This document shows, in pieces, positions 1,526 to 48,456 of a stretch of 48,456 nt of DNA. The notes below the pieces were generated by a model. It saw nothing but the letters and a program-made list of their open reading frames with translations. It made no database searches and was not told the DNA's origin. The DNA comes from a virus: positions 1 to 48,456 of the IMG/VR virus record IMGVR_UViG_3300025425_000033. One strand, written 5' to 3'. Position numbers and translations under genes: made by a program. Every line of letters starts with the position of its first letter. Position 1 is the first letter of the stretch.

Positions 1526-4500
1526 ATGGCCAAGCTGACGAGTATCACGCTGTATGACGCCAACCGGAATCTACTGAGCGATCCGGGCGGCACGCCTATC
1601 CTAGCCTGCGTGGACGGTGTGGTCCAGCGCCGGCAGGCTTTGGGCGAAGCTGAATTCCTATCGTTGAAGCTGCTACCAATGACACCGGCAGCCACGACGA
1701 TTGAGGGCGACGGATTCATGGCGTTGCGGCGTAGGCGCATTTTGAGACTAACCTACGATGACGCCGCCTTCCTGGAGTACCGTATCACAGAGGCTGTGCG
1801 GTCCCTGGACGGGGAGTCATCCGTGTCCGTGCGGGCAGAGTTCCTGCCGAACGCCCAGCTTGCAGCCTATGCACCCCGTCAAACGCTGGCAGATGATACA
1901 GTAGACGTACAGCCCACCTTCGTGGGGCTAGGGGCTCAGGCGGCCCTGGACGCGCTCCTGTCGGCCACCTGGGGACGGCCGGCGTTCATTATGACCGGCA
2001 CTATCGCGGCGGCGCTGGCTGACACGGTGGTAGAGGTGCGGAGCGACGGCACCAAGTCCTTCGTCGATCTGATCCGTGACATTGCGGAGCAGTGCGAGGG
2101 GGAGGTGGAATTCGCCTACAACTCAGGCTCCGGACGCTACGCTGTCAACATTTACGCGGAGGCTGGTTGGCACGCAGACGAACGAACGGCCGGCACGGCA
2201 GACCCTACGGCCCGGCCGATTGAGATAGGGAACAGCAGCAAGGGCAACCGGCAAAAGATGCTGCGGCGCTCGGATGATCGGGCCTACCTGTCTCATGTCA
2301 TACCGATCGGAGGACAAGACCCGGATCTCATCACCCTTGGGGGCGCTTTGTGGAGCGTGTCCACCTCCGGTACTGGCCCAACGACGATCACGTTCACGGC
2401 CGACAATCCGGTATTCCTGGATGACGCCCTGGTGGGCGCCTACGTGGGCGCGGACGCCGTGTCATTCTTTGAAGTAACGGCCTCTGACCGCACGGCCGGC
2501 ACGGTGACAGTGGCCGGCAACGCTAGTGCCCTCAATGGGCGCTCAGATATCCGGTTCGCCAGCGACTCGGGGGGCACGCAGCTGGTGGCCTTGACCCACC
2601 CGTCTGCGGTGGACGGCACCCTGGAGAAGCCACTACGGTTCTCGGGCGTGGCGCCTTATCAAAACCTGATCGCAGACGCGGGCGCATCCGCGGACTTCTC
2701 TACCTGGTCAGCCGGTTTGCCGGCCGGCTGGAGCAAGGAGGGCACGCCCACGGTCACGCAGGACACCGACGCGCGCTACCTCGCCAACGGAACGTCATCA
2801 GCCAAGGTTGTAGCCAGTGAGGAAGAGGGGCTCAGTACCACCGTCACGCTGACGCCCACCACGGAACACCCCTGGTTTTCTGCCTGGGTGAATCTCAGAG
2901 TGACCTCCGGCAATGTGCGACTGGTCGTGGTGGACGTAGATGGGCAGGAACATCCTTTGGGGGAAGACGCCTTCTCGACGGCAGACGAGTTACTGGCCCT
3001 CGCCATCGAAGGCTTTGATCCTATCAGTGGCACCGCCACCGTCAAGGTGTTGGCCTACGGAGGGGGAGCCACCTTCTACCTGGACGGGGCAACGGTCGTG
3101 CAGTCATCGGCCGGATATGCCTACAGTCCTGCTATGGGACCACGCGGTCTGTGGGCTGAGGCAGGGCGCTATCTCCGCGCCAATGACGAGTATCAGGACG
3201 CCTATGAGGCGGGCCTGCTCGACTATTCCTTCGTGGATACGGGCGGCAGCTACTACCCGGTGACCTGTGGTTCCCACTGCTCCGTCAAGGACGCTCCTAA
3301 CACTAGCGGCGGTCACGACATTGAGTTCAACGCGCGGGCGGTGGAGGTGGAGATTGACGAGGACGCGCACACCGGATCTATCTCCAGGCGCGTCGGCCTG
3401 AGCCGGCGGGTCAAGGACTTCCGTGACCGCTTCCTCGCGTCCCGTGGCGCCTTCCCGTCCAAGAGGATCACGCCCGTCAACGACTCGCGTATCACAGCTG
3501 GGCTCACGCCCTACGTCGAGGTGGACAACCTGTGGATCGAGGTCGTGGGGAACCGCTGGGTCAAAAGCTACCGGTACAACGATGACCCCAGCACCTTTCC
3601 TGACGCGGGTACCGGCACGTTGGAAGTGGCCAGCCAGGGCACGCATGATCTAGGCACTATCAATAAAGGCTCCGGACGCTACATCACCGTCACACCGTAT
3701 GGAGACAATGGAGGCGTGGTAGCCGGCCCGGCAGTCAAGTCGTTCTTCGCGCGGCCGCAGGACGGCAATACCGGCTCTGGCGGTGCTGCTGCCTCGCTCT
3801 ACTACATCAAGGCGACCGCTGGCACAGCCATTCATAATGGCACCGGCACACTGACGATTGAGGCCCATCTGGTCACCGGGGGCTCGGATTCGCTTTTGGC
3901 CGCCGGCACGATCAAGTTATACGACCCGTCCAATCAGGAGTTGACGGTAGCCAGCGGCTACTACACAGGGTCGGACGGTTATACCGGCGTGCTGGACTCC
4001 GGGGATATCTCCGGCGCTATCGTCATCACGCTCAAGGACGGTACTGGCGGCACGCCGCTGGACACAATCACCCTGGTGGATGTGGCAGACGGTGCCACGG
4101 GCGACACGGTTGTTTTTGGAAACCTGGCACCCATCAATGTCCCCACGGCCCGCACGGGCAAACTCCAGCAGTTTGCCGACTACCAGGGTATCCCAAAGGC
4201 GCAACATGGGGACGCGGGGGCCATAGTCGGAATCCCGATCACCTGGTTCAGCCAGTACGCCATAGTCACGATTGCCAACACGGGCACCGAGACATCCCTG
4301 CTGGGCAGCGGCTTGGGGACCAACGTAATACCTGCGAACACCCTCATCCAGGGCAGCACGTTCCACATCCGAGCCTCGGGGATTATATCCTGCGATGGGG
4401 GCAACACCATCGTGTTTCGGGTGAGCGTTGGAGGCACCAACCTGCTGGTATCCTCATCCTTGACCCCGGGCAGTTATGCGGACCGCCATTGGAGCCTGGA

Positions 4501-4741
4501 AGCCGACCTGGTATGCACCGCAGTCACCGGGACCACAGGATACATGAGGGGGCAAATGAAGGTGTGGTTCCGGGGAGGTCCAAGCACCACAGGGGCCGTG
4601 TATCCCACCGAAATGTCCGGGACCGTATCCATTGGGGCGGTCACTTCGTCCAAGACCATTGAGGTGACAGCGGACTGGGCATCCGCAGACGGTGATGATT
4701 CGATCAGAGGCACCAACGCCACCATCCAGCAACTCTATTAA
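1526..4741 (+). CDS. Tail tip / baseplate hub protein with carbohydrate-binding-like module
   Basis: The product has 1071 residues and its gene directly follows the tape measure, the usual site of distal-tail and tail-associated (Tal/hub) proteins. The first ~270 residues (start MAKLTSITLYDANRN, later FVDLIRDIAEQCEGEVEF) resemble a hub domain. A segment near residues 375-520 (NLIADAGASADFSTW followed by a beta-rich stretch) looks like a CBM4/9-type jelly-roll module. A middle region with SRRVGLSRRVKDFRDRFLASRG is followed by a beta-rich Gly/Thr C-terminus typical of receptor-binding tails. A GGAGGG-type ribosome site precedes the ATG. Likely role: closing the tail tip and contacting the host surface. 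The hub assignment is inferred from position and sequence style. Confidence 0.65.
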   Translation: MAKLTSITLYDANRNLLSDPGGTPILACVDGVVQRRQALGEAEFLSLKLLPMTPAATTIEGDGFMALRRRRILRLTYDDAAFLEYRITEAVRSLDGESSVSVRAEFLPNAQLAAYAPRQTLADDTVDVQPTFVGLGAQAALDALLSATWGRPAFIMTGTIAAALADTVVEVRSDGTKSFVDLIRDIAEQCEGEVEFAYNSGSGRYAVNIYAEAGWHADERTAGTADPTARPIEIGNSSKGNRQKMLRRSDDRAYLSHVIPIGGQDPDLITLGGALWSVSTSGTGPTTITFTADNPVFLDDALVGAYVGADAVSFFEVTASDRTAGTVTVAGNASALNGRSDIRFASDSGGTQLVALTHPSAVDGTLEKPLRFSGVAPYQNLIADAGASADFSTWSAGLPAGWSKEGTPTVTQDTDARYLANGTSSAKVVASEEEGLSTTVTLTPTTEHPWFSAWVNLRVTSGNVRLVVVDVDGQEHPLGEDAFSTADELLALAIEGFDPISGTATVKVLAYGGGATFYLDGATVVQSSAGYAYSPAMGPRGLWAEAGRYLRANDEYQDAYEAGLLDYSFVDTGGSYYPVTCGSHCSVKDAPNTSGGHDIEFNARAVEVEIDEDAHTGSISRRVGLSRRVKDFRDRFLASRGAFPSKRITPVNDSRITAGLTPYVEVDNLWIEVVGNRWVKSYRYNDDPSTFPDAGTGTLEVASQGTHDLGTINKGSGRYITVTPYGDNGGVVAGPAVKSFFARPQDGNTGSGGAAASLYYIKATAGTAIHNGTGTLTIEAHLVTGGSDSLLAAGTIKLYDPSNQELTVASGYYTGSDGYTGVLDSGDISGAIVITLKDGTGGTPLDTITLVDVADGATGDTVVFGNLAPINVPTARTGKLQQFADYQGIPKAQHGDAGAIVGIPITWFSQYAIVTIANTGTETSLLGSGLGTNVIPANTLIQGSTFHIRASGIISCDGGNTIVFRVSVGGTNLLVSSSLTPGSYADRHWSLEADLVCTAVTGTTGYMRGQMKVWFRGGPSTTGAVYPTEMSGTVSIGAVTSSKTIEVTADWASADGDDSIRGTNATIQQLY

Positions 4742-4744
4742 ACC

Positions 4745-5290
4745 ATGACCCAGCAGCAGCTTGTCACCATCACCGGACGGAGCCTCCCCGAGGACCTGGA
4801 CCGTGCCCTGAACTACGCGGCCCTGAAGTACGGGATCACCTCCCGGCTGCGCCTGGACCATTTCTTGGCCCAGCTCCTGCACGAAACCGGGGCTTTCCGC
4901 TGGAACCGGGAGCTGTGGGGGCCGACCTACCCCCAGCGTCGGTACGAGGGGCGAAAGGACTTGGGCAATCTCCAGGAGGGGGATGGCTTCAAGTTTCGGG
5001 GGCGGGGGTATATCCAGCTCACGGGCAGGACCAACTATCAGTCTTACTCGGACCACATCGGGGTGGATTTCTGCGCCTTCCCGGACCTGGTGGCAGAGCT
5101 GCCCTTTGCCGCGGATGTCGCGGGATGGTACTGGGACCACCGGGGCATCAACAGGCTGGCCGATGCGGATGATTTGCTCGGGGTCACCCGAGCCATCAAC
5201 GGGGGGACCAACGGCCTGGCAGACCGCCGGCGGTGGCTGGAGCGGGTTCGGCATCATGGGGCGACTTTGCCCAGCGAGGTGACCCTGTGA
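4745..5290 (+). CDS. Endolysin, glycoside hydrolase family 19 (chitinase-like)
   Basis: This 181-residue protein would cut the glycan strands of peptidoglycan at lysis. The family features are visible: HETGAF at residues 46-51 with the probable catalytic Glu47, and the highly typical FRGRGYIQLTGR block at about 84-95. The length fits a single catalytic domain with no wall-binding module. There is no signal peptide, so it should need a holin, and small membrane proteins follow immediately. The gene sits 3 bp after the tail protein gene and its stop overlaps the next start (GTGA). No clear SD sequence precedes the ATG. Confidence 0.9.
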   Translation: MTQQQLVTITGRSLPEDLDRALNYAALKYGITSRLRLDHFLAQLLHETGAFRWNRELWGPTYPQRRYEGRKDLGNLQEGDGFKFRGRGYIQLTGRTNYQSYSDHIGVDFCAFPDLVAELPFAADVAGWYWDHRGINRLADADDLLGVTRAINGGTNGLADRRRWLERVRHHGATLPSEVTL

Positions 5291-5922
5291 CGATGATCCT
5301 CACTCTTTTTTACGGGGCTACTTGCGCGCTGCTCGGCTTTGTGGTCGCCTATCTGATGCGCCGGGAGGCCACGCGGCTGGCCCTCCGTGTATCCAAACAG
5401 GACCGCTACATCAGGGACCTGTTTGAGCGCGTTCGTTTCACCTCGGGCATTGGCCGGGTCATATGGTACGAGGATCGCAGTCTGTGGTTGGACAACACCA
5501 GTCGCCGCATGATGGGGCTGTCTGTGCTGGACCATGAGCCGACCCTGGACGAGCGGGTCGCTTACATGGAATGGGCTTCGCTGGTGGCCTCGGACGCGGC
5601 CCTGCTACAGTCCCAACTGGACGTAGCCAAAAGCCTGGCAGACGGCGGGGCGAACCATCTAGTGGTCCCCTACAAAAACGGGTCCACCCTGTATGCTGTC
5701 GGGACCGGGAAAGCCAACGGGTACGCCTGGGTCGGCCTGAATATCGACGTTACAGTCCAGGGCCAACAGATTGCCGAAAGGGTTCTCGGGGAGGGGTCCC
5801 CGGCATCCCTGGAGCAACGATACAAGGCGCAAGTGGACCACCTGACAAAGGTGCTGGATGTGGCAGCCAATGACTCTCTTCAATCCTTGATGGCACGGTC
5901 GGAGCAGCAGTATGCCAAATGA
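5287..5922 (+). CDS. Membrane-anchored protein with a PAS-like fold, lysis cassette
   Basis: The product has 211 residues from the GTG that overlaps the endolysin stop (an ATG six bases on is also possible). One transmembrane helix lies at about residues 4-24, followed by a charged helix. The segment from about residue 54 (GIGRVIWYEDRSLWLDN) to about 157 (WVGLNIDVTVQ) resembles a PAS domain: a WxEDRxLWLDN-like opening, a central helical stretch and a closing GLNIDVT strand, like the usual GxxxDIT ending. A C-terminal coiled coil follows. Position between endolysin and a second membrane protein suggests a holin, antiholin or spanin role, but no family could be assigned. The PAS reading is a pattern match by eye. 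Confidence 0.6.
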   Translation: MTMILTLFYGATCALLGFVVAYLMRREATRLALRVSKQDRYIRDLFERVRFTSGIGRVIWYEDRSLWLDNTSRRMMGLSVLDHEPTLDERVAYMEWASLVASDAALLQSQLDVAKSLADGGANHLVVPYKNGSTLYAVGTGKANGYAWVGLNIDVTVQGQQIAERVLGEGSPASLEQRYKAQVDHLTKVLDVAANDSLQSLMARSEQQYAK

Positions 5923-6283
5923 TAAATCGGCACCGCCATCCAACTTTGAGTTATCGAACGCGCTGCTGCTGTGGGGGGAGCAACACAAGGCCCTGCAAAA
6001 GCAGGTAGAAACCAACTTTTCCACCGTGACCGATGTGCGGATGCGTCAGGTGGAAATATTGACGGAGATACGCCTTATGAAAGAACGATTGGGACCTCTA
6101 AACCAAAACCAGGGCGATGGGCTAATCGGGACGGTGGTGCAGCTCATCACCGCTTTCTTTTCGGCGAAGAACGTGGGGTACATCGCGGTGACGGCCCTGG
6201 CCATCGCCTTTCTGTACTTCACGATTTGGCAGGATGGCTTCATCCTAATCATTGATTTGTTCAAACCATCAAGACTACCATGA
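5912..6283 (+). CDS. Small coiled-coil protein with C-terminal membrane segment (holin/lysis candidate)
   Basis: The product has 123 residues: a hydrophilic N-terminus, a helical segment at about 20-60 (HKALQKQVETNFSTVTDVRMRQ) that looks coiled-coil, and one strong hydrophobic segment at about 91-117. The gene overlaps its upstream neighbour by 11 bases, and its stop overlaps the next ATG. A single-TM, coiled-coil protein next to an endolysin fits the XhlA-type or holin-accessory pattern, but sequence similarity is not evident. Function is inferred from position only. Confidence 0.6.
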   Translation: MPNDKSAPPSNFELSNALLLWGEQHKALQKQVETNFSTVTDVRMRQVEILTEIRLMKERLGPLNQNQGDGLIGTVVQLITAFFSAKNVGYIAVTALAIAFLYFTIWQDGFILIIDLFKPSRLP

Positions 6284-6567
6284 ACGACCAATTCAGCAAC
6301 ACTACAGCGTCATTCGGCAAGATCCCGGTTATCGCTCCTGACCAACTGCGCCCCACTCCCGAGCTGGCGGCTGCCGCAGGGGAGTTCCAGGGAGCCATTG
6401 CGGGGCACGTTGTGGCCCTGCTCCAGGACCCCGCATTCAAGACCAAGGTGGTTGACCTCATCAAGGCAGCCATCCCCGGCAAGGTGTTCGATTGGTTGGC
6501 GGTGTCGGCCTATGACATGGCGGTGTCGGCCATCTCTACCGTCCTGGACGGTGACCGCATCGGGTGA
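6280..6567 (+). CDS. Hypothetical small protein of the lysis cassette
   Basis: The product has 95 residues, starting at an ATG that overlaps the upstream stop (ATGA) and ending in a TGA that overlaps a downstream GTG. The middle (GEFQGAIAGHVVALLQDPAFKTKVVDLIKAAIP) is an amphipathic helical stretch, and the end (VFDWLAVSAYDMAVSAISTVLDGD) is mildly hydrophobic but not a clear membrane helix. I recognise no family. Translational coupling places it with the lysis genes. Confidence 0.6.
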   Translation: MNDQFSNTTASFGKIPVIAPDQLRPTPELAAAAGEFQGAIAGHVVALLQDPAFKTKVVDLIKAAIPGKVFDWLAVSAYDMAVSAISTVLDGDRIG

Positions 6568-12956: not shown

Positions 12957-13723
12957 CACGCCTGCGAGCAATATTTCCTTGCGCGGTGTTCTTGGATGGA
13001 CATCCGTGCCCCGCATGGGCGCCTTGATCGTTTGACCTCGCTGCCGCACCGTTGGCACCTAACGTGATGTTCGGGAGCCACGTACGCGGACACGCCAAGG
13101 ACCTGTCGCCGATTACGGACAGACATGGTGCCGACGCCTAGGTCTTTCCCTACCTGGACATCGGTCGCCGTAGCAAGGCGAGAATCCATCTTAGGGGTCC
13201 ACACCGTCGGACGTTTGGCAGACGATTTCTTGATGCCAAGCCTAAGCCTCTTGGTCCTAATGGTGTTCTCGTTTATGCCGTACTTCGCTGCCAGTTCGTG
13301 GTCAGGAACCGTGGGCATTTCAGCTAAAATGGGTTCCGGCCATTCGATCTTCGCTCGCCTCCGCATTCCGGGGAATCTCTTCCCTTCCTGGTTGCGCCGC
13401 GCCGAGTACGAGCTGCCCGCGGCCTTGCTTCCTGTGCCGATCTCTGCGACGTTCAGTAGGTTATCAACGCCTATCCCAATAATCATTCGGGCCTCTGCGT
13501 CGATGGCCTGGCCCCGAGTAAGGCCAGACTCTACTGATTCGATGGTGACCAATACACCAGAGGCCGCGAAATTCCCCACAGGCGTGCCCTTGGTCTTATG
13601 CGAAGCCAGCCTATCACGAAGAGACCCACGCGTAATGCCCACGTAGACGACTTGGCGCGTGTCGGATCGACGCACGATATAAACCGTGTTGTCGGTTGGA
13701 AGTGCTACTTCAGTCGGTTCCAT
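12944..13723 (-). CDS. GIY-YIG family homing-type endonuclease
   Basis: The product has 259 residues. The GIY-YIG domain spans about residues 12-95: VYIV at 14-17, YVGI at 27-30, then R and H residues, and a likely metal-binding Glu at 77 (IDAEARM). Two HTH-like DNA-binding units follow (HELAAKYGINENTIRTKRLRL and DVQVGKDLGVGTMSVRNRR), then a zinc ribbon (RCQRCG ... CSQAC). This nuclease plus modular DNA-binding tail is typical of free-standing homing endonucleases. The start overlaps the end of the intact methyltransferase gene by 19 bases and the stop overlaps a second methyltransferase C-terminal motif, so the gene sits exactly at that target. Confidence 0.85.
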   Translation of the reverse strand: MEPTEVALPTDNTVYIVRRSDTRQVVYVGITRGSLRDRLASHKTKGTPVGNFAASGVLVTIESVESGLTRGQAIDAEARMIIGIGVDNLLNVAEIGTGSKAAGSSYSARRNQEGKRFPGMRRRAKIEWPEPILAEMPTVPDHELAAKYGINENTIRTKRLRLGIKKSSAKRPTVWTPKMDSRLATATDVQVGKDLGVGTMSVRNRRQVLGVSAYVAPEHHVRCQRCGSEVKRSRRPCGARMSIQEHRARKYCSQACTHS

Positions 13724-14916
13724 AAGACACTAAAGGCTCTTGATACAGTTTGTGGCACGCAGCCATTTCCGAGGAGGCGCAGTTCGTCAATTCTGGAGTC
13801 ACTGGTTCGGCACAGCTCGGCATAGTCCAGCCGATCGGGATTCCTTGCAGACACTCGACCCACCTCGGGTTCAATCTCGCGCTCTTCGTCTGCCCCACGG
13901 CCTCCCCGATGTTCGACCGGCCCCGATCCTCGATTGAATCTTTGTGCATGAAGGTCCGCGGTGTCGGCCATTGGCGATCCTTCTGCACCACCTGACTCGG
14001 CAACATCAGATCCCCTTTCGACCCCCGTTGGTTCGGGCCGCCCTTCTCCCCGTCGCTGCCTCTCGGCGTTGCCCACGACTCTCGGCGGCTCCCATCCGTA
14101 CTGGGGTTCTGTGGGACCGGAGGGCCATAGCGCATGAAGTTCGGGAGCTGGTCCATGTGGGCGCGGCCCTTCGCTGTCTGCGTGTGTTCCTCGCTGTTTG
14201 TGCCCTTGTGGTCTCTCGCTGCTGGAGTCGGCCATTGCCGCACCTGAGCCGCCAGCGGCAGCCCGAAGCCGTTCCCGTTCTTCTTCTCGGCTTTGACCCG
14301 TAGCCTTCGGCTCTCCAGGCTCTCCAGGCTCTCCAGGCTCTCCAGGCTCTCCCCGTCGTTCATCACGGAGGCGTCGGGAGTCGCCCAGCCTGCCGAGGAT
14401 AAAGACCCGCTTCCTCCTGTGTGGCGCCCCGACTTCTTCCGCTGAGAATATTCCCCACGTTGTCTCGTAACCATCGCTGACCATGTCGCGGATGACTGCG
14501 TCAAGTCCTGAAGTGATATGCCCCTCGACGTTTTCCCAAAAAAGGAGCCTTGGACGCAGTCGTAGATAGTGCTGGCGTATTCGCGGCCACAGGTGGCGCG
14601 GATCGTCCGTTCCAAGACGCTTTCCGGCGTGGCTGAAGGGCTGACAGGGGTAGCCGCCCGATATGAGATCGACTGCACCCACCCACGGATCGGGGTCGAA
14701 GGTGTGTAGATCCGTCCAAATAGGTGCCGCATCCAGTTGACCCGCTTCCATCTTCGCAACCAGGTTGGCGCAGGCGAAGGACTCGATCTCCACAGCAAAT
14801 GCGAGGCGCACATCGAAGCCAAGCGATCTTGCGGCACGCGATATTCCGATGTCGAGTCCTCCGTATCCAGTACAGAATGATCCGACATTAAGGGTAGGTT
14901 TCTTGGTAGTATCCAC
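13705..14916 (-). CDS. DNA (cytosine-5) methyltransferase
   Basis: The product has 403 residues from a GTG start. Motif I (FCTGYGGLDIGI, about 14-25), motif IV with the catalytic Cys91 (GGYPCQPFS), motif VI (ENV, 128-130), motif VIII (PHRRKRVFIL, about 165-174) and motif X at the end are all present, so it is probably active. The target-recognition part (about 180-370) is long, Arg/Glu/Gly-rich and carries five GEP triplets plus repeated MADS/VGNAERQR-like units, common in phage enzymes. It likely protects phage DNA from host restriction. Upstream are a 26-codon frame and a run of eight G (minus strand). Confidence 0.9.
   Translation of the reverse strand: MDTTKKPTLNVGSFCTGYGGLDIGISRAARSLGFDVRLAFAVEIESFACANLVAKMEAGQLDAAPIWTDLHTFDPDPWVGAVDLISGGYPCQPFSHAGKRLGTDDPRHLWPRIRQHYLRLRPRLLFWENVEGHITSGLDAVIRDMVSDGYETTWGIFSAEEVGAPHRRKRVFILGRLGDSRRLRDERRGEPGEPGEPGEPGEPKATGQSREEERERLRAAAGGSGAAMADSSSERPQGHKQRGTHADSEGPRPHGPAPELHALWPSGPTEPQYGWEPPRVVGNAERQRRGEGRPEPTGVERGSDVAESGGAEGSPMADTADLHAQRFNRGSGPVEHRGGRGADEEREIEPEVGRVSARNPDRLDYAELCRTSDSRIDELRLLGNGCVPQTVSRAFSVLWNRLK
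14311..14354 (-). repeat. 9-bp tandem repeat in the methyltransferase recognition region
   Basis: The plus-strand unit CTCTCCAGG occurs four times in tandem, followed by a partial copy, and encodes GEP repeats on the coding strand. Copy-number changes would keep the frame. The repeat sits just after motif VIII, at the start of the target-recognition region. Confidence 0.9.
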
Positions 14917-14917
14917 A

Positions 14918-14998
14918 CTATCGCCCCCCCCAGTCAGACACGAGGCCGTCGGCCCCCAGTTCGCGTAGCCTGTGGGCTACCATTTCGAGTACGGTCAT
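14918..14998 (-). pseudogene. 26-codon frame duplicating the start of the gene at 11777
   Basis: It reads MTVLEMVAHRLRELGADGLV and onward, closely matching MTVLEIVASKLRDIGADGLC of the Cys-rich gene at 11316-11777; the DNA is clearly alike over 60 bases. The frame stops after a run of eight G on the minus strand (14924-14931), just before the methyltransferase GTG. A one-base change in that run would fuse it to the methyltransferase frame. It is probably a truncated paralogue that now supplies a coupled translation start. Confidence 0.5.
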
Positions 14999-24405: not shown

Positions 24406-25050
24406 TTGAACGTAATTCCTTCGCGCACGGATACCGTCGCACTCGCTGAAATCCGGCCGCACCCCAAGAACCCCCGCCAGGGGGATGTGGGAGCGATCAC
24501 AGACTCTATCAACCACCACGGCTTCTTCGGCCGGCTGTTGATACAGGAGTCCACCGGGTACATCATTGCCGGCAACCACCGGTATCAGGCCGCCCTCGCC
24601 CTGGGCGCCGACACGATCCCAGTCGAGTACCTGGACGTTGATGACCAGCAGGCCGCCAAGATCCTGGCCGTGGACAACCGGCTGAGTGACCTCGCGGACT
24701 ACGACCGCAGCGCGCTCACTAAGTTGCTCTTGGAGTTTGCCGAACAGGACACCCTAGCGGGCACAGGCTACACGGGGGATGACCTGGACGAGTTGATGCT
24801 TGAAATGGAGTCGGCCCTGGGGGACGCCTACGAGGAAGAGCAGACAGCAGGCGGCGGTGACGCGGCCGGCTACGAATTCACGCCCTCCATTGTCTACACC
24901 GTGGTCTTTGACACACGGGAGCAGAAAGACGCCTTCATGTCTTTCCTCACGTGGCTCCGCACTGATGACGCCAACATAGCCGGCGACACCATCGCGGAAC
25001 GTCTACTCACCTTCCTACAGGACCATGCCGATCCACAGGCGTTTCATTGA
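24406..25050 (+). CDS. ParB-like nuclease domain protein (IbrB-like)
   Basis: The product has 214 residues from a TTG start, the only plausible one, with AAGGG upstream. The ParB/Srx-like domain covers residues ~10-100: VALAEIRPHPKNPRQGD, ITDSINHHGFFGRLLIQ, IAGNHRYQAALALGADTIPVEYLDVDD. GNHRYxAA is the family's signature. The remainder is helical and acidic. The gene overlaps a PAPS-reductase-like gene by 26 bases, the same pair as IbrB/IbrA. Phage proteins of this type have been linked to DNA binding, nicking or modification; the exact role is unknown. Confidence 0.75.
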   Translation: MNVIPSRTDTVALAEIRPHPKNPRQGDVGAITDSINHHGFFGRLLIQESTGYIIAGNHRYQAALALGADTIPVEYLDVDDQQAAKILAVDNRLSDLADYDRSALTKLLLEFAEQDTLAGTGYTGDDLDELMLEMESALGDAYEEEQTAGGGDAAGYEFTPSIVYTVVFDTREQKDAFMSFLTWLRTDDANIAGDTIAERLLTFLQDHADPQAFH

Positions 25051-26134
25051 CTCCGATGTGTTGACGGAGGCCCGCCAGCGCATCCGCTACGTCATGGCCA
25101 GCTTCGACAGCTGGTGCGTGGCCTTCTCCGGGGGCAAGGACTCCATCGTGGTCCTGCACCTGGTGCGCCAGGCGATGGACGCGGCCGGCCTGCAAGACCA
25201 ACCGCTGGAGGTAGTCTTCCGGGACGAGGAATTGATCTCTGATGTAGTAGTCAACACCGTGCGGTTCTACTTCGACCAGCCGGAGCGCTACGCGCTGCGC
25301 TGGTACGCCGTGCCGCTCATGTCCGAGAAGTTCATCCTGGGGCGCAAGTATGAGTACGTCCAGTGGGATCCCGCCCGCCCGCACGTAAGAGACAAGCCGG
25401 CCTGGGCTATCACGGAACCGACTGGCCGCGTGTTTGACCAGTACAGCATGGATGACTTCGCCACCCGGGACATGGCCGGCCGCGTGGCTGTCTTCAACGG
25501 CACCCGGGCCTCGGAGAGCCTCACCCGCCGGTTCTCCTGCCTCAACAAGCTGGATGACAACTACATCAACGCCACAGAGGTCGGCAGGGTCAAGATGGTC
25601 AAGCCCATCTATGACTGGGAGGAAGTAGACGTCTTCCGCTTCATCCACGACGAGGACATACCCTACTGCCCCATCTATGACGCCCAGTTGTGGAATGGCG
25701 AGGCCCTGCGCGTGTCCACCCCCCTGCACGCGGAAACCGCCAAAAACCTGGGCCGCCTGCGCACGCTAGACCCGGCCTTCTACGACCGCATCCTAAGCGT
25801 ATTCCCCGAAATGGAGGTGCAAGACCGGTACTGGAATGACATAGATCGCAACGTCGTGTTTGCCCAGTACGGGGTCTCCTGGCGCGCCATGATCTCCTGG
25901 ATCAAGGACAACATCCCCGACCCGGCACTGCGTGCCCTGGCCGCCAAGCGCGTGCAAACGTGCCGCTCCATTCGCCGCAACAACCTCCGGAAGGGTGTCT
26001 CGAAGGACACCTACGGGGGCTATCCGCTCCTGTACGTGTTCAAGCAGATCATTGGGGGCAACTACAAGCGCGTGATCCTGCCTTTACGGGCCGCCAAGGT
26101 ATCCAAGGAAATGCGGAGGTGGGAGGATGACTGA
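25025..26134 (+). CDS. PAPS-reductase family PP-loop protein (IbrA-like)
   Basis: The product has 369 residues. The PP-loop SGGKDS lies at residues 35-40 after a CVAF strand, which is typical of the PAPS reductase/ATP sulfurylase fold that binds and adenylates. FRDEELISD fits the next conserved strand, and GTRASESLTRRF is the RxxES-type substrate segment of this class. The C-terminal ~170 residues are helical and basic (RSIRRNNLRKGVSKD). Partnered with the ParB-like protein. Relatives include IbrA and the DNA-phosphorothioation protein DndC. Sulfur chemistry on DNA or nucleotides is possible but not shown. Confidence 0.8.
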   Translation: MPIHRRFIDSDVLTEARQRIRYVMASFDSWCVAFSGGKDSIVVLHLVRQAMDAAGLQDQPLEVVFRDEELISDVVVNTVRFYFDQPERYALRWYAVPLMSEKFILGRKYEYVQWDPARPHVRDKPAWAITEPTGRVFDQYSMDDFATRDMAGRVAVFNGTRASESLTRRFSCLNKLDDNYINATEVGRVKMVKPIYDWEEVDVFRFIHDEDIPYCPIYDAQLWNGEALRVSTPLHAETAKNLGRLRTLDPAFYDRILSVFPEMEVQDRYWNDIDRNVVFAQYGVSWRAMISWIKDNIPDPALRALAAKRVQTCRSIRRNNLRKGVSKDTYGGYPLLYVFKQIIGGNYKRVILPLRAAKVSKEMRRWEDD

Positions 26135-35181: not shown

Positions 35182-35579
35182 TCCACACGGCGGTGCTGGA
35201 CAGCTTCAAGCAGATCCTGAAAGAGGCACCGTTTGCCTACACGCAGACCGAGGGCCTGGACGGACACCCGGTGCTGGCCGCTCACGCGGCCCTCTACCTA
35301 AGCGGCATCGAGGACGGCCTACCTTACGCGATCGCTTGGCGCGGCGCCGGCTACGAGGACAAGGCGCAGGTCACGTTCTTCCGCGAGGCCACCGGCGGCC
35401 CGGCTGGCGTGTGGTTTTGGAACGGCGAGGCTAACCTGGTGGCTAGCATGAGTCCAGTGAGGCTCCAGGGCGACAGCGGCCTGCAAGCAGAGCGGGGCGC
35501 TTTCGACCGCAAGAGCCTACCGTCAGCTGTAGCTGCGGTGATGTTCGTGAGCGAGGACTTGGGCGCGCGCGTTATCTAG
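35178..35579 (+). CDS. Hypothetical protein following the MuF gene, 133 aa
   Basis: The ATG overlaps the MuF stop. The protein is mixed alpha/beta with no signal or membrane segment (MIHTAVLDSFKQILKEAPFAYTQTEG, then VTFFREATGGPAGVWFWNGEANLVAS). No family recognised. Direct coupling to a toxin-like fusion allows an antidote or chaperone role, which the sequence does not show. It ends tail-to-tail with the lipoprotein gene (8-base overlap). Confidence 0.55.
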   Translation: MIHTAVLDSFKQILKEAPFAYTQTEGLDGHPVLAAHAALYLSGIEDGLPYAIAWRGAGYEDKAQVTFFREATGGPAGVWFWNGEANLVASMSPVRLQGDSGLQAERGAFDRKSLPSAVAAVMFVSEDLGARVI

Positions 35580-35964
35580 CCACCGCGATCCGCACCCGGT
35601 AACCCTCATACAGGTAGGCCAGCGACTTATCCTGGTCCTTGATGATTACCACCGTCACCAGGCCGGGCTCGTAGACTACGGTCAGGGTGGCTAGAGCAAA
35701 CTCCAGCGGCAGGGGCATCCAGCTTCCGGGCGTCTTGGCGTCGGTGTAGGCCACCACAAAGCCAGCCTCAATGTCCTGGGCCGTGAGCAAGGGCGCAGGG
35801 GCTGACCACTGCTCCACCGGGCCGTTGTTTGTCCAACTGGCCGGGACCGGCAGTCTAAGCGTGAGAGACTCTAGGGCCAAGGAGCCGTTTTCACCGGCAG
35901 GGCCTACCGGGCCTTCACAGGCGGCAAGCAGCAGGAGCAGCGCGAGAACGGGGGCTGAACGCAT
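35572..35964 (-). CDS. Lipoprotein with collagen-like N-terminus (moron candidate)
   Basis: The product has 130 residues and is the only minus-strand gene inside the structural operon. A signal peptide MRSAPVLALLLLL is followed by the lipobox LAAC with lipidated Cys16. The mature start is EGPVGPAGENG, a short collagen-like turn, then an all-beta domain of about 110 residues. Such lipoproteins sit in the outer or inner membrane of the host. Phage lipoproteins of this kind often block superinfection. The orientation and own-promoter need mark it as a moron expressed apart from the late genes. Confidence 0.7.
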   Translation of the reverse strand: MRSAPVLALLLLLAACEGPVGPAGENGSLALESLTLRLPVPASWTNNGPVEQWSAPAPLLTAQDIEAGFVVAYTDAKTPGSWMPLPLEFALATLTVVYEPGLVTVVIIKDQDKSLAYLYEGYRVRIAVAR

Positions 35965-39867: not shown

Positions 39868-40923
39868 ATGCCCACCTATCGAATCGGCCCTGCACGCTTG
39901 ATGATCGCCCCGTCGTTTGCCAGCCCATTGACGGACTGGGTGGACATGGGCTACTCGCGTGGTGATGTGTCGGTCAACCTCACGCCGTCTGTGATCGCCA
40001 GGGGCAAGGTGGATCAGATTGGCCCCATCCCCTTCACGGAAGCGATCACCATTGCTCCAAAGGGCCTGACGGCCCGCGTGCCGCTGGCTGATCGTGACAT
40101 AGCAAAGATAGCGCAGGCGTTTCCTGGGGCTGTGAGCGTGACGGCAGGCAGCAAGAAGGCCCTCACACTGCCCGCTGCGCCCCAGCAGTATTCCACGGTG
40201 GCCGTGGCCCTGCTCCCGGAGTTGGATATTGCCGACAAGGACAACCCCAACCCGTTCGACTCCGCGCACGCCATCTACTTCGAACTGGCCTGGGTCAAGG
40301 TGGTCGAACTGACGGAAGGCGCGGAGGTCACAGATGACGATGACGCCCTAAATGTCTTCCAGGTGGAGATAGAGCGCGTGCTGGGCTCCGGGGCCGCCGG
40401 CATCGGCTACCCCTGGCTGAATCCTGGGCTGACCAACCCACTGGGCATCCTGTACTCCTGGCAGCCGGCACTGGATGATTCCACCCCCGCTATTGGCACA
40501 GGAGAGATTGCCGCTCTGGCCACCTTCCCGGCGGCCGGCGTGACCATCCTGGTACAACTCTCCGACGCCGGCGCCTCCGGAGCGGCATTAATCGGTGACG
40601 CCTCGCTGGAAGCCGCTAAGTATTCCCTGGGCGTGGACTCCACGGCATCCTGGGCGCGGGTCAACAACACGCTCTACACGCAGGCCGGTCTTGGGGGTGT
40701 CGCTGAGACCGTCATGCAGCTGGCGGTCGCGGGCACGGTCAATGGCTGGGATGACAGCACGCAGGATATCACGGCGGCCGCCACGGCCTCTGTCTCCGGC
40801 CTGACGCTGAAATCAGCAGGCGACGATATCACGGTCTCTTACGACGAGGCTGATGTGACCGCCATTGTCATCGTCCTGGGCCTGCTCACGCCGGAGCAAA
40901 TCCGCACCTACGTACGGTCATGA
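39868..40923 (+). CDS. Tail tube-domain protein with C-terminal extension (paralogue 1)
   Basis: The product has 351 residues. Residues 1-~185 are a tube domain that shares YRIGPxRL, GYSRGDVSVNL, ARGKVDQIGPIPFTEA and SKKALTLPAAPQQ with the proteins at 41448 and 44423. The ~165-residue extension looks like a beta-sandwich module (GVTILVQLSDAGASGAALIG). It ends in LTPEQIRTYVR, nearly the same as the end of the 820-aa paralogue. It is likely part of the tail tube or a decoration of it. Confidence 0.7.
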   Translation: MPTYRIGPARLMIAPSFASPLTDWVDMGYSRGDVSVNLTPSVIARGKVDQIGPIPFTEAITIAPKGLTARVPLADRDIAKIAQAFPGAVSVTAGSKKALTLPAAPQQYSTVAVALLPELDIADKDNPNPFDSAHAIYFELAWVKVVELTEGAEVTDDDDALNVFQVEIERVLGSGAAGIGYPWLNPGLTNPLGILYSWQPALDDSTPAIGTGEIAALATFPAAGVTILVQLSDAGASGAALIGDASLEAAKYSLGVDSTASWARVNNTLYTQAGLGGVAETVMQLAVAGTVNGWDDSTQDITAAATASVSGLTLKSAGDDITVSYDEADVTAIVIVLGLLTPEQIRTYVRS

Positions 40924-41447: not shown

Positions 41448-43910
41448 ATGCCCAACACGTATCGCATAGGCCCCGGCCGCATCCTGGTCGCTGACAGCAT
41501 TTCTGATCCTATTGAGGACTGGCTAGACCTGGGGTACACGCGCGGCATCACCATTGACTTGACGCCGCACGAAGTGGCGCGCGGCCGTGTGGACCAGCTG
41601 GGGCCAGTGGCCTTCGCAGAGGCTGTATGGGTGGCGCCACGCGGATTCCAGGTACGGGCCAGTATGGCCGACCAGGACGCGGTCAAGGCGGTTAAGCTAC
41701 TACCGGGATCAATCCTCGTCACCAGCAGCGCCAAGGAGGCACTGACCTTCCCGGCGCAGATAGCGTCCCTGGGCACGAAGGCGGTGGCCATTATCCCGGA
41801 GACAGAGTACACAGCGGGCGACCCCTGGGTGGACGCCAATAACGCCGTGTGGATGAAGGAGGCGTTTCTGTCCATCGACCAGGTGCCGGTAGGCGGCGAA
41901 GTGGCCGATGACGATGACGCCATTCACCGGATGGAGTTGGTGATCACGCGCTGCCTGCCTAACGCAGCCGGTATCGGGTCACCTCTTGTGGCGGCCCCGG
42001 AGGTCTATCCCCAGGGGTGTCAGTTTTTGTGGCAGCCCCTGCTGGACGGCCTGGTGCCTCTCGTCCGCGACAGTTACACCTTCACCCGCGCCTCTACCGC
42101 CACCTACACGGACGCGGATGGCGTAGTGCAGACCGCTGGGATCAACGTTCCCCGCTATGATGGGGCTACGGGGAGGCCGATCAACGAGCCGCAGGGGACA
42201 AATCTCCACACCCAAAGCGAGAACGATAACTCTTCGTGGACGGCGAAGGACGTCACACTTACCGAATATGTCGCCGCTCCTGACGGTAGCATTACCGCGA
42301 CCCGAACCGTAATTGACTCCCAAACCGAGACTCATTACGTGATTTACGACAACGCGCATTCTGTCGTGGTGTCCGGCACTCAATACACACACTCTCTCCA
42401 CGTAAAGATCGCCGATGGCGAGTCCTTATATTTACGCGTAAGAGGATCGGGATACTCCGTCTCCCTCGATTACAAATTCCTACGATCCGGGAATACCCTT
42501 GTCACAACGGAATCAACACCGGAGAAGAAAGGGTACAAATACATTGGCGACGGTTGGTTTCGCGTCTGGGTATCTGGGATTGCTGACGGGACAGGAGACA
42601 GCCGTTCTCAAGTATGGTTTTTGAACGGGACCAATACCTCCGTTGTGGGGAACGGGACCGATTTCTTTGACGTTTGGGGTGCCCAGGTCGAGGCCCACGA
42701 CGGCCCCCCGACCTCCTACATCCCCACATCAGGCTCCACGGTAACGAGAAGTGCCGACGTTTGGGGCGGGGCCGGGACGTTCACTCGCGCATCGTCTGCT
42801 ACCTATGTTCGAAATGGCGTGGTGAAATACGCTGGGACGAATGAGCCTCGTCATCAAGATTCGGGGCTGTTGCTGGAGCCGCAGAGGACGAATCTTCAAA
42901 CATATTCGGGCGGCGAGTCGGGCTGGATACCAACGAGATGTTCGATCTCTGCGAACTCGGCTGCCGGCCCGGACGGAACGCTCACGGCTGACAAGCTAGT
43001 GGAGGACAGTAGTGCGTCAATTAATCACTTCGTCAGCCCCGTAGCCTTTGCCCTTACTATCGGGACTACGTATTCCGTGTCCTTATTCGTGAAGCCAGCG
43101 GAGCGGTCGCAGATAAGGATAAGGGTGACTGGTGCTGGAGTGATAGACTCCGGGGTCGCGTTCGACCTCGTTGCACTTACTACTTCCATCAAATACGGTA
43201 GCCCCTACCGCCAGTCTATTGTGGAAATGGCCGGCGGGTGGTTCCGGTGTTCGTTCACCACCGACGCGGCTATGGCATCTGGAAATGCTAGCTTCTATCT
43301 GTATTTGGAAAATGATGCCCTGGCCTATACGGGTGACGGCTCATCGGGCCTCTACTTCGAGGGTCTCCAAATCGAAGCTGGCTCCTCCCCCACGAACTAC
43401 ATCCCAACGGCGGGAAGCGCGGTGACGCGGAGTTCGGACTCGGTTGACTTTGCCCAAGCCAACATCCCGTCCCCATTCGTGGAGTTTACGGCCCACGCCA
43501 AGTTGACACTTGAGAAAGGCGTGTTCGACGGCAATGGCTCAATGGTAACTTCGGCCACTGGGGCATTGACCGATGAGTACCGAATGATGCTCCGAACATC
43601 TAGCGAGGGCAATGGTCGGCTTGAGTGGACGTTCGACGTAGAGAACGGCACCCTCAAAGAATACACGCACCTTGCGGATGCCGTTGCAGACGTAGAGCAG
43701 GACACAACCTTTCATGTGGACGGAACTGACGGATCATCCTACGCGGCAGACACGATACAGGAGTCGAAAGCTATTTCCGGTGATCCGACCGGGAAGGATT
43801 TTGCCGACGCTTTAAGATTCCAGCCCGCAAGCCAAGCGGTTGGGTTTTCAGGTTTCGTTGTTGTCAAAGGCACTCTCACCCCCGCCCAAATCCGTAAGTA
43901 CCTCCGATGA
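41448..43910 (+). CDS. Tube-domain fusion with two receptor-type modules (paralogue 2)
   Basis: The product has 820 residues. Residues 1-~195 are a tube domain like 39868 and 44423 (YRIGPGRILVADS, GYTRGITIDL, ARGRVDQLGPVAFAEA, SAKEALTFPAQIA). Two similar modules follow, each starting FTRAS-S/T-ATY and with EPQ-x-TNL; both then carry a beta-sandwich section ending in PTSYIPTxGSxVTRS or PTNYIPTAGSAVTRS. The last ~140 residues end in LTPAQIRKYLR, shared with paralogue 1. The modules resemble jelly-roll/concanavalin-type host-binding domains of tail proteins. By eye the module DNA is less GC-rich than the rest. Confidence 0.7.
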   Translation: MPNTYRIGPGRILVADSISDPIEDWLDLGYTRGITIDLTPHEVARGRVDQLGPVAFAEAVWVAPRGFQVRASMADQDAVKAVKLLPGSILVTSSAKEALTFPAQIASLGTKAVAIIPETEYTAGDPWVDANNAVWMKEAFLSIDQVPVGGEVADDDDAIHRMELVITRCLPNAAGIGSPLVAAPEVYPQGCQFLWQPLLDGLVPLVRDSYTFTRASTATYTDADGVVQTAGINVPRYDGATGRPINEPQGTNLHTQSENDNSSWTAKDVTLTEYVAAPDGSITATRTVIDSQTETHYVIYDNAHSVVVSGTQYTHSLHVKIADGESLYLRVRGSGYSVSLDYKFLRSGNTLVTTESTPEKKGYKYIGDGWFRVWVSGIADGTGDSRSQVWFLNGTNTSVVGNGTDFFDVWGAQVEAHDGPPTSYIPTSGSTVTRSADVWGGAGTFTRASSATYVRNGVVKYAGTNEPRHQDSGLLLEPQRTNLQTYSGGESGWIPTRCSISANSAAGPDGTLTADKLVEDSSASINHFVSPVAFALTIGTTYSVSLFVKPAERSQIRIRVTGAGVIDSGVAFDLVALTTSIKYGSPYRQSIVEMAGGWFRCSFTTDAAMASGNASFYLYLENDALAYTGDGSSGLYFEGLQIEAGSSPTNYIPTAGSAVTRSSDSVDFAQANIPSPFVEFTAHAKLTLEKGVFDGNGSMVTSATGALTDEYRMMLRTSSEGNGRLEWTFDVENGTLKEYTHLADAVADVEQDTTFHVDGTDGSSYAADTIQESKAISGDPTGKDFADALRFQPASQAVGFSGFVVVKGTLTPAQIRKYLR

Positions 43911-44422: not shown

Positions 44423-45103
44423 ATGCCTAACAATTATAGCATCGGCCCGATGCACGCGATCTACGGAGACTTCCAAGACAACTCGGGAGCCTTCGTCGAT
44501 GTGTCCTACCTCGGCAAAACGCGCGGTGACGTGATCGTGCGGCCTAACCCCAGCATCGCTAGGGGCAAGGTGGACCAACTCGGTCCTGTCGCCATCACTG
44601 ACGCCATTTGGATCGGCGCCTACTCCCCTGAAATCGTCCTACCCCTGGTGGACGAGGACAAGACCAAGCTATCGAAGATCATGCTGGGCACTACGGTGGT
44701 CACCAGTGGGTCCAAGACGGCGCTCACCTTTCCCACCGGACCGCAGCAGATCGCCAATGCCAACATTGGCTCGTTGATGCTCATTCCTGTGCGCAAGACC
44801 TACACCAACTTCGGCAGCGGCGAAGACCCCTTCAACGATCCGGACAACTGGTTCTTCCCGGCGGTTATCCCGCGCGAGGTAGGCGAGTTCATGTACGGGG
44901 AAGTAGCAGACACCGACGATGCGCTCAACCCGCACACGGCGACGCTGATCGGCTGCTACCGCTCGAAGTGGCAGGATGACACCCTGGCCACGGGGCTCCC
45001 GCAGGTTCTCTTCCGGGGCTCTCCGGACGCGGCCGGCCTGTCCACAGGGTTCGACTTCGTCACCAACGCGCTGACTCGCTTCAACGCGCTGATCGCGACC
45101 TAA
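44423..45103 (+). CDS. Major tail (tube) protein (paralogue 3)
   Basis: The product has 226 residues, the shortest of three paralogues, so probably the basic tube subunit. It shares NYSIGPM, TRGDVIVRPNPS, ARGKVDQLGPVAITDAIW and SKTALTFPTGPQQIA with the tube domains at 39868 and 41448. It lies directly before the tail chaperone and tape measure, the standard place of the major tail protein. No SD precedes it, as for the capsid gene. Confidence 0.8.
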   Translation: MPNNYSIGPMHAIYGDFQDNSGAFVDVSYLGKTRGDVIVRPNPSIARGKVDQLGPVAITDAIWIGAYSPEIVLPLVDEDKTKLSKIMLGTTVVTSGSKTALTFPTGPQQIANANIGSLMLIPVRKTYTNFGSGEDPFNDPDNWFFPAVIPREVGEFMYGEVADTDDALNPHTATLIGCYRSKWQDDTLATGLPQVLFRGSPDAAGLSTGFDFVTNALTRFNALIAT

Positions 45104-45779: not shown

Positions 45780-48456
45780 ATGGGACTCCGATCAGAAGCC
45801 ATCCTAGTCACGGACAAGTGGCACCGCGCGCTCAACCTGATGACCAAGGACACGGAAGAGTCCTTCAAGAAGCAGGAGCGCACCGGCACGCAGGCGTATG
45901 ACCGCCTGGGCAAGAAGGGCGTGTCCGTGGCCTCTAAACTCAAGCGGGCGTTCGCCGGGATCTTCGCCGGCACCAGCATTGGCTTCGCGGTTAAGAAGAT
46001 GCTGGACTTCAACAAGGAGTTGGAGAAGACGCTGATCTCCTTCAAGGTGCTGACCGGCAGCCAGGAGAACGCTATTGCTCTGTTCAAGGAACTGGAGCGA
46101 TTCGCCGCCTTCACGCCTTTCGAGCAGGCCACGTTGAACAAGGGGGCGCAGTCCCTGCTGGCCTATGGCTTCGCGGCAAAGGAGGTGGTCGGTATCCTCA
46201 AGGACGTTGGGGACGCGGCCGCCGCCAACCCGGAGGGGATGGAGCAGGGCCTCATGCGCATCGTCCGGGCCTTCGGGCAGATCCGGGCGCGTGGCAAGCT
46301 GGCGGGGCAGGAAGTCCTCCAGCTGACAGAGTCCGCGGTGCCGGCCCTGGAAATATTGGCCAACGCCTTCCGCAAGACCACGGGCGAAGTACAGAAGATG
46401 ATCGAGAAGGGCCTGATCCCCGCCGACACCGCCATTGCGGCGCTGCGGGCCGGGCTCCAAGAGCGCTTCGGGGGCCTGCTGGCCGAGCAGAGCCGGTCGA
46501 TGGATGGGCTACTGTCCACGCTCAAGGAGAACGTGACCATCATCACCCGGGACCTGGGCGCCGGCCTGTTTGACAGCCTGCGCACGGACCTCATGCAGGT
46601 CACGGACTCCCTGGGCCGCATGGCCGACTCCGATGACTTCAAGGGCAAGATCAAGGCCATCAGCGCGGAGATAGCCATATTCTATCAGCGCCTCAAGACG
46701 GTGCTGAAGTGGGTGTGGGAGAACCGGCGGGCGATCCTCAACGTGGTGGCCGCCTATGCGTCCATGCGCCTGACGCTGATTGGGCTGAACGCCATTCTCA
46801 CGGTCACCCCCATCCTGTTCCGGGCGGTGGACTCTGCGCTCATCACCTACCGGGCACTGACCATTGCGGCCAATGTGTCCACGAAGGCGTTTTTTGCGAC
46901 ACTGGCGCTCAACCCGTTCGCGGCGGCGGCGGCGGCCGTGGGGGGACTGGTGCTGGCTCTCCTGGAGTGGCAGCGCCACGCGGAAGAGGCAGAGCGGATT
47001 CAGAGGGAACTGGTCGGCACGGTCACGGATGCCGCCAGTGCCTACGAGAAACTGAGCGATGCCCAGCGTGGCACCGTGCGGAAGGGCCTGGATAAGCGGT
47101 TCCTGGAGTTGGTGGCGCAAGAGGATGACCTGAGCAAGCAGATCGCTGATGCGCAGCTGCGCCCCAACCCCGGGATGCTCAGCGGCGATATCCCCGGCAC
47201 GTTGTCCTTGATCCAGTTACTGGGGCAGCGCAAGAAGGACGTTGCGAACAATATCGAGGCCCTGGAGGTCTTGATGAACAAACTACAGCAGCCGGCGCCC
47301 AAACAGGAGGCTGATGACAAGGGGGATACCACCCTCAAGAAGCTGGAATTAGGCACCGGGGAGCAGAAGACGCTGATGCAGTCCCTGCGTGAGACTGTCA
47401 AGGGCCTGGAGGAGGACCTGCAGTCCATACGATCGGAGGGCGAGGAAGAGTACGCTAGCCTGCTCCGCAAGAAGGGGGTCTACGAATCCCTACTCAAGCT
47501 GACGGAGCGGCGCCTGGAGCGAGAGAACGACCGGGCCGCCACCCTGCGCGAGATAGCCCGGCGCACCGGGGCCGACGTAGAGGGGCTGGAAGCCATGATG
47601 AGCATACTCAACGGCAGCAAGATGCTCACGCTACCACCCAGCCTAGGGCTAGGGGGGCTGACCATGGAGATTGAGTCGGCTGTCAAATCCTTCAATGACC
47701 GGTCGGAGCGCATCCGGGTACTGGAAGATCCGGAAGAGGCACGCAAGGCAATGGGTGACCTGGAGCGGATCTACACCGCGTCCATCAAGGCACTACGTGA
47801 CCGGGTAAAGACCGTGATCGGGCAGTTGGACCCAGCGGCCGCCAAAGACTTGTTGGCGCTGCTGGATCGGGCACAGGGCCTGGTGACCGACAGTGATAAG
47901 ATCAGTGTCAACTTCAAGACCATCGCCACGGCCGCCCGCAGCATCCTCCAGCTGGACGGCGTGTTCGGCAACATGGACGATGACGTACGGCGCCTGGCAG
48001 AGTCGATTATCGGCGTAGTAGACAACCTGGGCGAGTTGCGCAACGTGCGCGAGACCTTGACTGACGCTGGCGTGGGGCTCTCGTCCTCGGCTGGCGTGTT
48101 GGCGCAGGCGGCCCCGATCCTGGGCATTGCAACCTCCGTGGTGTCGGGACTGTCTGCCCTGTTTGGGTCACAGTCAGAAGAGAGCGCCAGCCTGGTAGAC
48201 GGTCTAGGCCGGAATGAGCGCGCTTTGCGGGATAATGCGCGCGAGATCTCGTCCGCTATCCGTGAGTGGATCCGTGCCAACACCGTCGGTAGTGACCTCA
48301 CGGAAACTCAGATCGAGGCTGTCGGCCAGGCCATGCTCACCGTAGACGCTATTGTGGGATACGGGAAGGACCTGTCAGACCTGGCTGACGCGACGCGGCG
48401 CTTTGAGGATGCTCAGCGGCGATATTTGGATGCGGTGGTCTACGGTGAGCATGGCC
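45780..48456 (+). CDS. Tail tape measure protein, N-terminal part
   Basis: The ATG at 45780 has GGGAGG upstream. The frame is open to the window end and continues at position 2 of the window (whole protein 1351 residues). The tape-measure family core is visible in the first ~250 residues: FNKELEKTLISFKVLTGSQE, TPFEQATLNKGAQSLLAYGF, then a hydrophobic section near 330-400 (NPFAAAAAAVGGLVLALLEW) that may insert into the host membrane. Long coiled coils follow. The protein sets tail length and is ejected ahead of the DNA. Confidence 0.92.
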   Translation, partial: MGLRSEAILVTDKWHRALNLMTKDTEESFKKQERTGTQAYDRLGKKGVSVASKLKRAFAGIFAGTSIGFAVKKMLDFNKELEKTLISFKVLTGSQENAIALFKELERFAAFTPFEQATLNKGAQSLLAYGFAAKEVVGILKDVGDAAAANPEGMEQGLMRIVRAFGQIRARGKLAGQEVLQLTESAVPALEILANAFRKTTGEVQKMIEKGLIPADTAIAALRAGLQERFGGLLAEQSRSMDGLLSTLKENVTIITRDLGAGLFDSLRTDLMQVTDSLGRMADSDDFKGKIKAISAEIAIFYQRLKTVLKWVWENRRAILNVVAAYASMRLTLIGLNAILTVTPILFRAVDSALITYRALTIAANVSTKAFFATLALNPFAAAAAAVGGLVLALLEWQRHAEEAERIQRELVGTVTDAASAYEKLSDAQRGTVRKGLDKRFLELVAQEDDLSKQIADAQLRPNPGMLSGDIPGTLSLIQLLGQRKKDVANNIEALEVLMNKLQQPAPKQEADDKGDTTLKKLELGTGEQKTLMQSLRETVKGLEEDLQSIRSEGEEEYASLLRKKGVYESLLKLTERRLERENDRAATLREIARRTGADVEGLEAMMSILNGSKMLTLPPSLGLGGLTMEIESAVKSFNDRSERIRVLEDPEEARKAMGDLERIYTASIKALRDRVKTVIGQLDPAAAKDLLALLDRAQGLVTDSDKISVNFKTIATAARSILQLDGVFGNMDDDVRRLAESIIGVVDNLGELRNVRETLTDAGVGLSSSAGVLAQAAPILGIATSVVSGLSALFGSQSEESASLVDGLGRNERALRDNAREISSAIREWIRANTVGSDLTETQIEAVGQAMLTVDAIVGYGKDLSDLADATRRFEDAQRRYLDAVVYGEHG
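48311..48456. repeat. Terminal direct repeat (circular contig overlap), right copy
   Basis: Repeats positions 1-146 with a single change (G at 48330 versus A at 20). The reading frame of the tape measure passes through it unbroken, so it marks the circular junction of the assembly. Confidence 0.95.

Follow-up and report, generated by a model that had tools for sequence, protein, structure and literature searches.

A predicted membrane-anchored protein with weak resemblance to PAS domains, encoded next to the endolysin gene of a phage

Holin timing is usually seen as a built-in clock, and lysis inhibition of the T4 type is the main known case of sensing. The initial annotation of the phage genome studied here proposed a PAS domain on a membrane protein encoded directly behind the endolysin, with lysis timing that would respond to a ligand, redox state or light. 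Here we examine how far this protein resembles a PAS domain protein, what else it might be, and which role it may have in lysis. The window is the whole stretch analysed, 48,456 nt (IMG/VR virus record IMGVR_UViG_3300025425_000033).

The lysis locus and its 211-aa membrane protein

The genome carries direct terminal repeats of 146 nt at positions 1-146 and 48311-48456 (99%), and because these repeats lie at both ends it is very probably complete and terminally redundant, with a length of ~48.3 kb. A tape-measure-like ORF spans the terminal-repeat junction. The features of the lysis locus are as follows.

1526-4741: tail protein, directly before the endolysin gene
4745-5290 (+): GH19-family endolysin, 181 aa (PHROG_181 endolysin, E=4e-54; Pfam Glyco_hydro_19, E=7e-7)
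5287-5922 (+): TM-PAS-like protein, 211 aa, GTG start (from the translation, the transmembrane helix and the PAS profile score)
5296-5358 (+): predicted transmembrane (TM) helix, residues about 4-24 (hydropathy 2.1 over 19 residues)
5440-5775 (+): PAS-like region, residues about 52-163 (from hhalign, a PAS-guided alignment and a low-confidence model)
5912-6283 (+): 123-aa protein with a C-terminal TM helix, residues about 88-106 (hydropathy 1.95); candidate holin or holin partner
6280-6567 (+): 95-aa soluble protein, gene overlapping the preceding one (from the ORF and hydropathy)

The endolysin, which shows neither a signal nor a SAR sequence, is matched by 1885 phage records. No family was found in Pfam, PHROGs or NCBIfam for either of the two products at 5912-6283 and 6280-6567, and a canonical multi-TM holin was not recognised in the cassette by Pfam, PHROGs or hydropathy. 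The ORF encoding the 211-aa protein lies directly behind the GH19 gene, as had been annotated, and its GTG start overlaps the endolysin stop by four bases (GTGA). Its codon-position GC content is of the coding type (GC3 0.74 versus GC2 0.42), and the gene is real. In the protein, an N-terminal TM helix is joined through a helical linker to a beta-rich region, behind which comes a final C-terminal helix; it is predicted to be a bitopic, single-pass membrane protein, and the single TM helix of the initial annotation was recovered by hydropathy at the N-terminus. No homologues of the protein were found in the viral, genome, phage and plasmid collections, nor in 40 records whose terminases share about 50% identity. 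Among plasmids, tblastn gave a single match, to a PAS histidine kinase of Rhizobium (E=0.9); its alignment was not in register with the PAS domain, and it was dismissed as a chance match.

Several other loci were seen in passing. A possible lipoprotein gene at 35572-35964 (-) (MRSAPVLALLLLLAAC...), encoded on the other strand from the head genes, is the only convincing lipobox ORF found in the genome and is a candidate o-spanin or moron. Similar starts (MPTYRIGPARLM, MPNTYRIGPGRIL and MPNNYSIGPMHAI) are shared by three proteins encoded at 39868-40923, 41448-43910 and 44423-45103; two of the three match the Ig-domain family PHROG_2175, and the genes are apparently duplicated tail genes. Two 400-aa ORFs at 13705-14916 and 13710-14918 (-) occupy the same DNA on the same strand in different frames, one of them resembling a DNA cytosine methyltransferase (VGSFCTGYGGLDIG), and a phosphoadenosine phosphosulfate reductase-like gene lies at 25025-26134 (+) (PHROG_2302, E=1e-104). 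In Xanthomonas phage PhiXhv-28, the genes for the GH19 endolysin and for a class IV holin are followed by that of a 212-aa protein (L028:3527-4165); the N-terminal part of this protein is hydrophobic, the rest is helical, and its sole annotation is holin-like.

Comparison with PAS families and a PAS profile

Both motifs on which the PAS reading had been based, GIGRVIWYEDRSLWLDN and WVGLNIDVT, are present in the translation of 5287-5922. The search against PAS families that had been put forward as a check yielded no PAS match for the protein in Pfam (E ≤ 10), PHROGs or NCBIfam, and a six-frame search of the whole 48,456-nt genome with PAS_3 likewise gave none at E ≤ 10. A PAS profile was built from 28 domains of sensor proteins encoded on plasmids of 11 organisms and compared with the 211-aa protein by hhalign. 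The comparison returned a score of 25.6 over 115 in-register columns, with an absolute PAS probability of only 22-29%. Columns 29-159 of the protein, comprising the linker and the domain, were paired with profile positions 10-134, so that the linker helix, the N-terminal W-Y-E-D and S-L-W-L strands, the helical middle and the C-terminal hairpin NGSTLYAVGTG...WVGLNIDVT all fell in register.

The score of 25.6 ranked first against 300 shuffles of the sequence (maximum 20.8) and 900 more (maximum 22.3), with a Gumbel p of about 2e-4 from the 900-shuffle null. It also ranked first against about 165 ORFs of the same genome (maximum 18.4) and against two further sets, 642 ORFs taken from GH19 loci and 1,001 belonging to related phages; the maximum in the latter set was 21.8 apart from one protein described below (L067), which itself scored 22.2. 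Since the 211-aa protein had been picked by eye for its PAS look, this profile test is partly self-selected. Profiles of spanins and of GH19 gave nothing comparable to PAS (10.8 and 18.1 over 15 columns). The initial observation of a PAS domain is confirmed only in part. Compared with the bacterial PAS_3 and PAS_4 sensor domains (PF08447, PF08448), the protein shares the in-register match from the linker helix to the closing WVGLNIDVT-type motif; unlike them, it has no significant HMM match, and it is a short phage protein in which only a helix, and no output domain such as a kinase or cyclase, follows the PAS-like region.

Single-sequence AlphaFold2 models of the whole protein and of residues 26-172 reached pLDDT values of 40 and 36, which is below usable confidence. 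In the domain model (mc5e62c1ed152) the elements follow the order E-E-H-H-E-E-E-H, as in PAS, but at a pLDDT of 36. Foldseek searches with these two low-confidence models gave no significant match.

One rival explanation is that the profile match arose by chance and that the 211-aa protein is a membrane protein of some other function, for example a late moron or one that acts in superinfection exclusion, with a beta-rich domain that is not of the PAS type. The low absolute probability from hhalign, the lack of homologues in the collections searched and the self-selection noted above all speak for this explanation. The score, however, is higher than in any of the 1,200 shuffles and of some 1,800 other ORFs, and the translational overlap of the two genes points to a joint role with the endolysin; we regard an unrelated protein as unlikely, albeit the alternative to be taken most seriously.

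TM-PAS-like proteins beside endolysins in two other phages

Among the 642 GH19-locus ORFs, the one that scored highest after the query was a 222-aa protein of an unrelated uncultured phage (L067:3143-3811). It has a TM helix at its N-terminus that leads through a helical linker into a PAS-like region, and its gene sits 22 nt upstream of a PG-binding and GH19 endolysin. Its top Pfam match is PAS_4, below the cut-off (E=0.0023, 18.6 bits versus a cut-off of 23.1). A single relative of it was found, L114:5001-5642 (62% identical). This protein is encoded upstream of a PG-binding and CHAP endolysin, with a tail-fibre-like gene on its other side, and has PAS_4 as its sole Pfam match, again below the cut-off (E=0.0013). 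In both proteins the PAS_4 match covers the N-terminal half only. Against the PAS profile, one of 300 shuffles of the L067 protein scored higher than the protein itself, a weaker result than that for the 211-aa protein, and its putative PAS assignment is based mainly on the Pfam PAS_4 matches in the two homologues. No earlier description of these proteins was located.

Each of the two cassettes has an Rz1-like lipoprotein frame, which in L067 is weakly supported by a family match (PHROG_456, E=0.0098) and in L114 was read by eye, and each also contains a hydrophobic, holin-like ORF. Because spanin-like genes coexist with it, the TM-PAS-like gene appears to be an extra component of these cassettes, distinct from the spanin.

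There is no detectable sequence similarity between the 211-aa protein and the L067 and L114 proteins, and a joint MAFFT alignment of the three was out of register and was not used for structure prediction. The 211-aa protein and this family are linked by architecture and gene neighbourhood: all have an N-terminal TM helix, a helical linker, a PAS-like region, a length of about 215 aa, an endolysin neighbour and the same charge bias around the TM helix, whereas the gene of the 211-aa protein lies downstream of the endolysin and theirs lie upstream. Among 1,610 ORFs of related-phage loci, no further TM-PAS protein was found besides the included L067 protein. Judged by these predicted architectures, TM-PAS-like proteins recur at phage lysis modules. 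The above-null profile match, the order of secondary-structure elements in the very low-confidence model and the independent TM-PAS-like protein beside endolysins in two other phages together make a weak but measurable PAS resemblance of the 211-aa protein likely.

Phage genomes seem to contain PAS domains only very rarely. The PAS consensus was matched in 7 of 50,697 phage records, at least one of the seven matches lying on a host-like stretch, and PAS_4 was matched in two of 50 screened records, these being the L067 and L114 TM-PAS proteins, one of which had been added because of them. Among the PAS matches listed for known phages, the one with the strongest identity, in Pseudomonas phage Y10, was set aside since it looks like host DNA: the match lies beside a PtsP-like gene in an unverified record. 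In the open-access literature on PAS together with spanin, endolysin, holin or lysis timing, we found no description of a PAS protein in a lysis cassette.

Topology, rival identities and a proposed role in lysis

No charged residues precede the TM helix of the 211-aa protein, and +5/-2 charges lie within 15 residues after it; the L067 and L114 proteins likewise have positive charge after the TM helix and none before. By the positive-inside rule, the basic flank of a TM helix is on the cytoplasmic side. On these flanking charges the topology is most likely N-out/C-in, which would place the PAS-like domain in the cytoplasm.

The charges bear on whether the protein is a divergent inner-membrane spanin (Rz-like) in the usual slot after the endolysin. 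In about 20 of 80+ GH19 loci, the gene that begins where the endolysin gene stops, usually with this 4-base overlap, encodes an i-spanin of 170-190 aa with a TM helix and a coiled coil, so that the 211-aa protein shares with the i-spanins of GH19-type cassettes its gene slot, the overlap and the N-terminal TM helix. Those i-spanins, in contrast, mostly have basic residues before the TM helix; a two-component spanin is of type II (N-in), whereas the flank charges of the 211-aa protein suggest N-out. The protein also has a beta-rich region where a spanin would have its second coiled coil, no lipobox o-spanin ORF overlaps or follows 5287-5922 in or near the cassette, and hhalign against 21 spanins gave 0.08%. 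A spanin identity is not supported, and we judge it quite improbable.

Another single-TM lysis protein, the T4 holin T, which is under antiholin control, consists of one TM helix, a bridge helix and a globular domain whose part is purely regulatory (PMC12162936; PMC11413866). For a class-III-type holin like T speak the size of the 211-aa protein (211 versus 218 aa), the same order of TM helix, long helix and globular domain, and the lack of a recognised canonical multi-TM holin in the cassette. The two proteins nevertheless share no sequence or profile similarity (hhalign 0.18%), and T did not match the PAS profile (score 10.3). Pore formation by T requires an N-terminal cytoplasmic domain, which is absent here, where the TM helix starts at about residue 4, and the globular domain of T is periplasmic, the opposite of the topology predicted for the 211-aa protein. 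A T4-type holin is therefore not supported either, and strikes us as a distinctly poor prospect.

We favour, tentatively and with a probability of about 0.45, an accessory protein of the lysis cassette that spans the inner membrane once, N-out/C-in, and bears a strongly diverged cytoplasmic PAS fold on a helical linker. Here we infer the PAS fold, the cytoplasmic placement of the domain and joint action with the lysis proteins, and the lysis function from gene position alone. A PAS fold can serve as a plain dimerisation module. The PAS domain might dimerise on the cytoplasmic side of the inner membrane and bind the holin candidate encoded at 5912-6283, or the endolysin; binding would restrain pore assembly by the former, or the latter itself, until a threshold is reached. 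The protein would most likely act at the inner face of the membrane, as an antiholin-like or scaffold protein that dimerises, and a sensing step would be speculation. The residues give no indication of light, flavin-thiol or canonical haem sensing: the sole Cys (C13) lies within the TM helix, leaving no LOV or PYP Cys, and the predicted F-helix region (about 87-119) contains no His, the histidines being at 83, 124 and 185. For lysis timing responsive to a ligand, redox state or light, we obtained no positive evidence.

It is a long shot that several unrelated phages have adopted PAS domains as membrane-anchored lysis regulators, so that holin triggering would be tuned by a cytoplasmic small molecule or the metabolic state of the host and not by a fixed clock. 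Membrane-anchored PAS-like proteins encoded beside endolysins in two or more unrelated phage lineages would be candidates for condition-dependent lysis timing.
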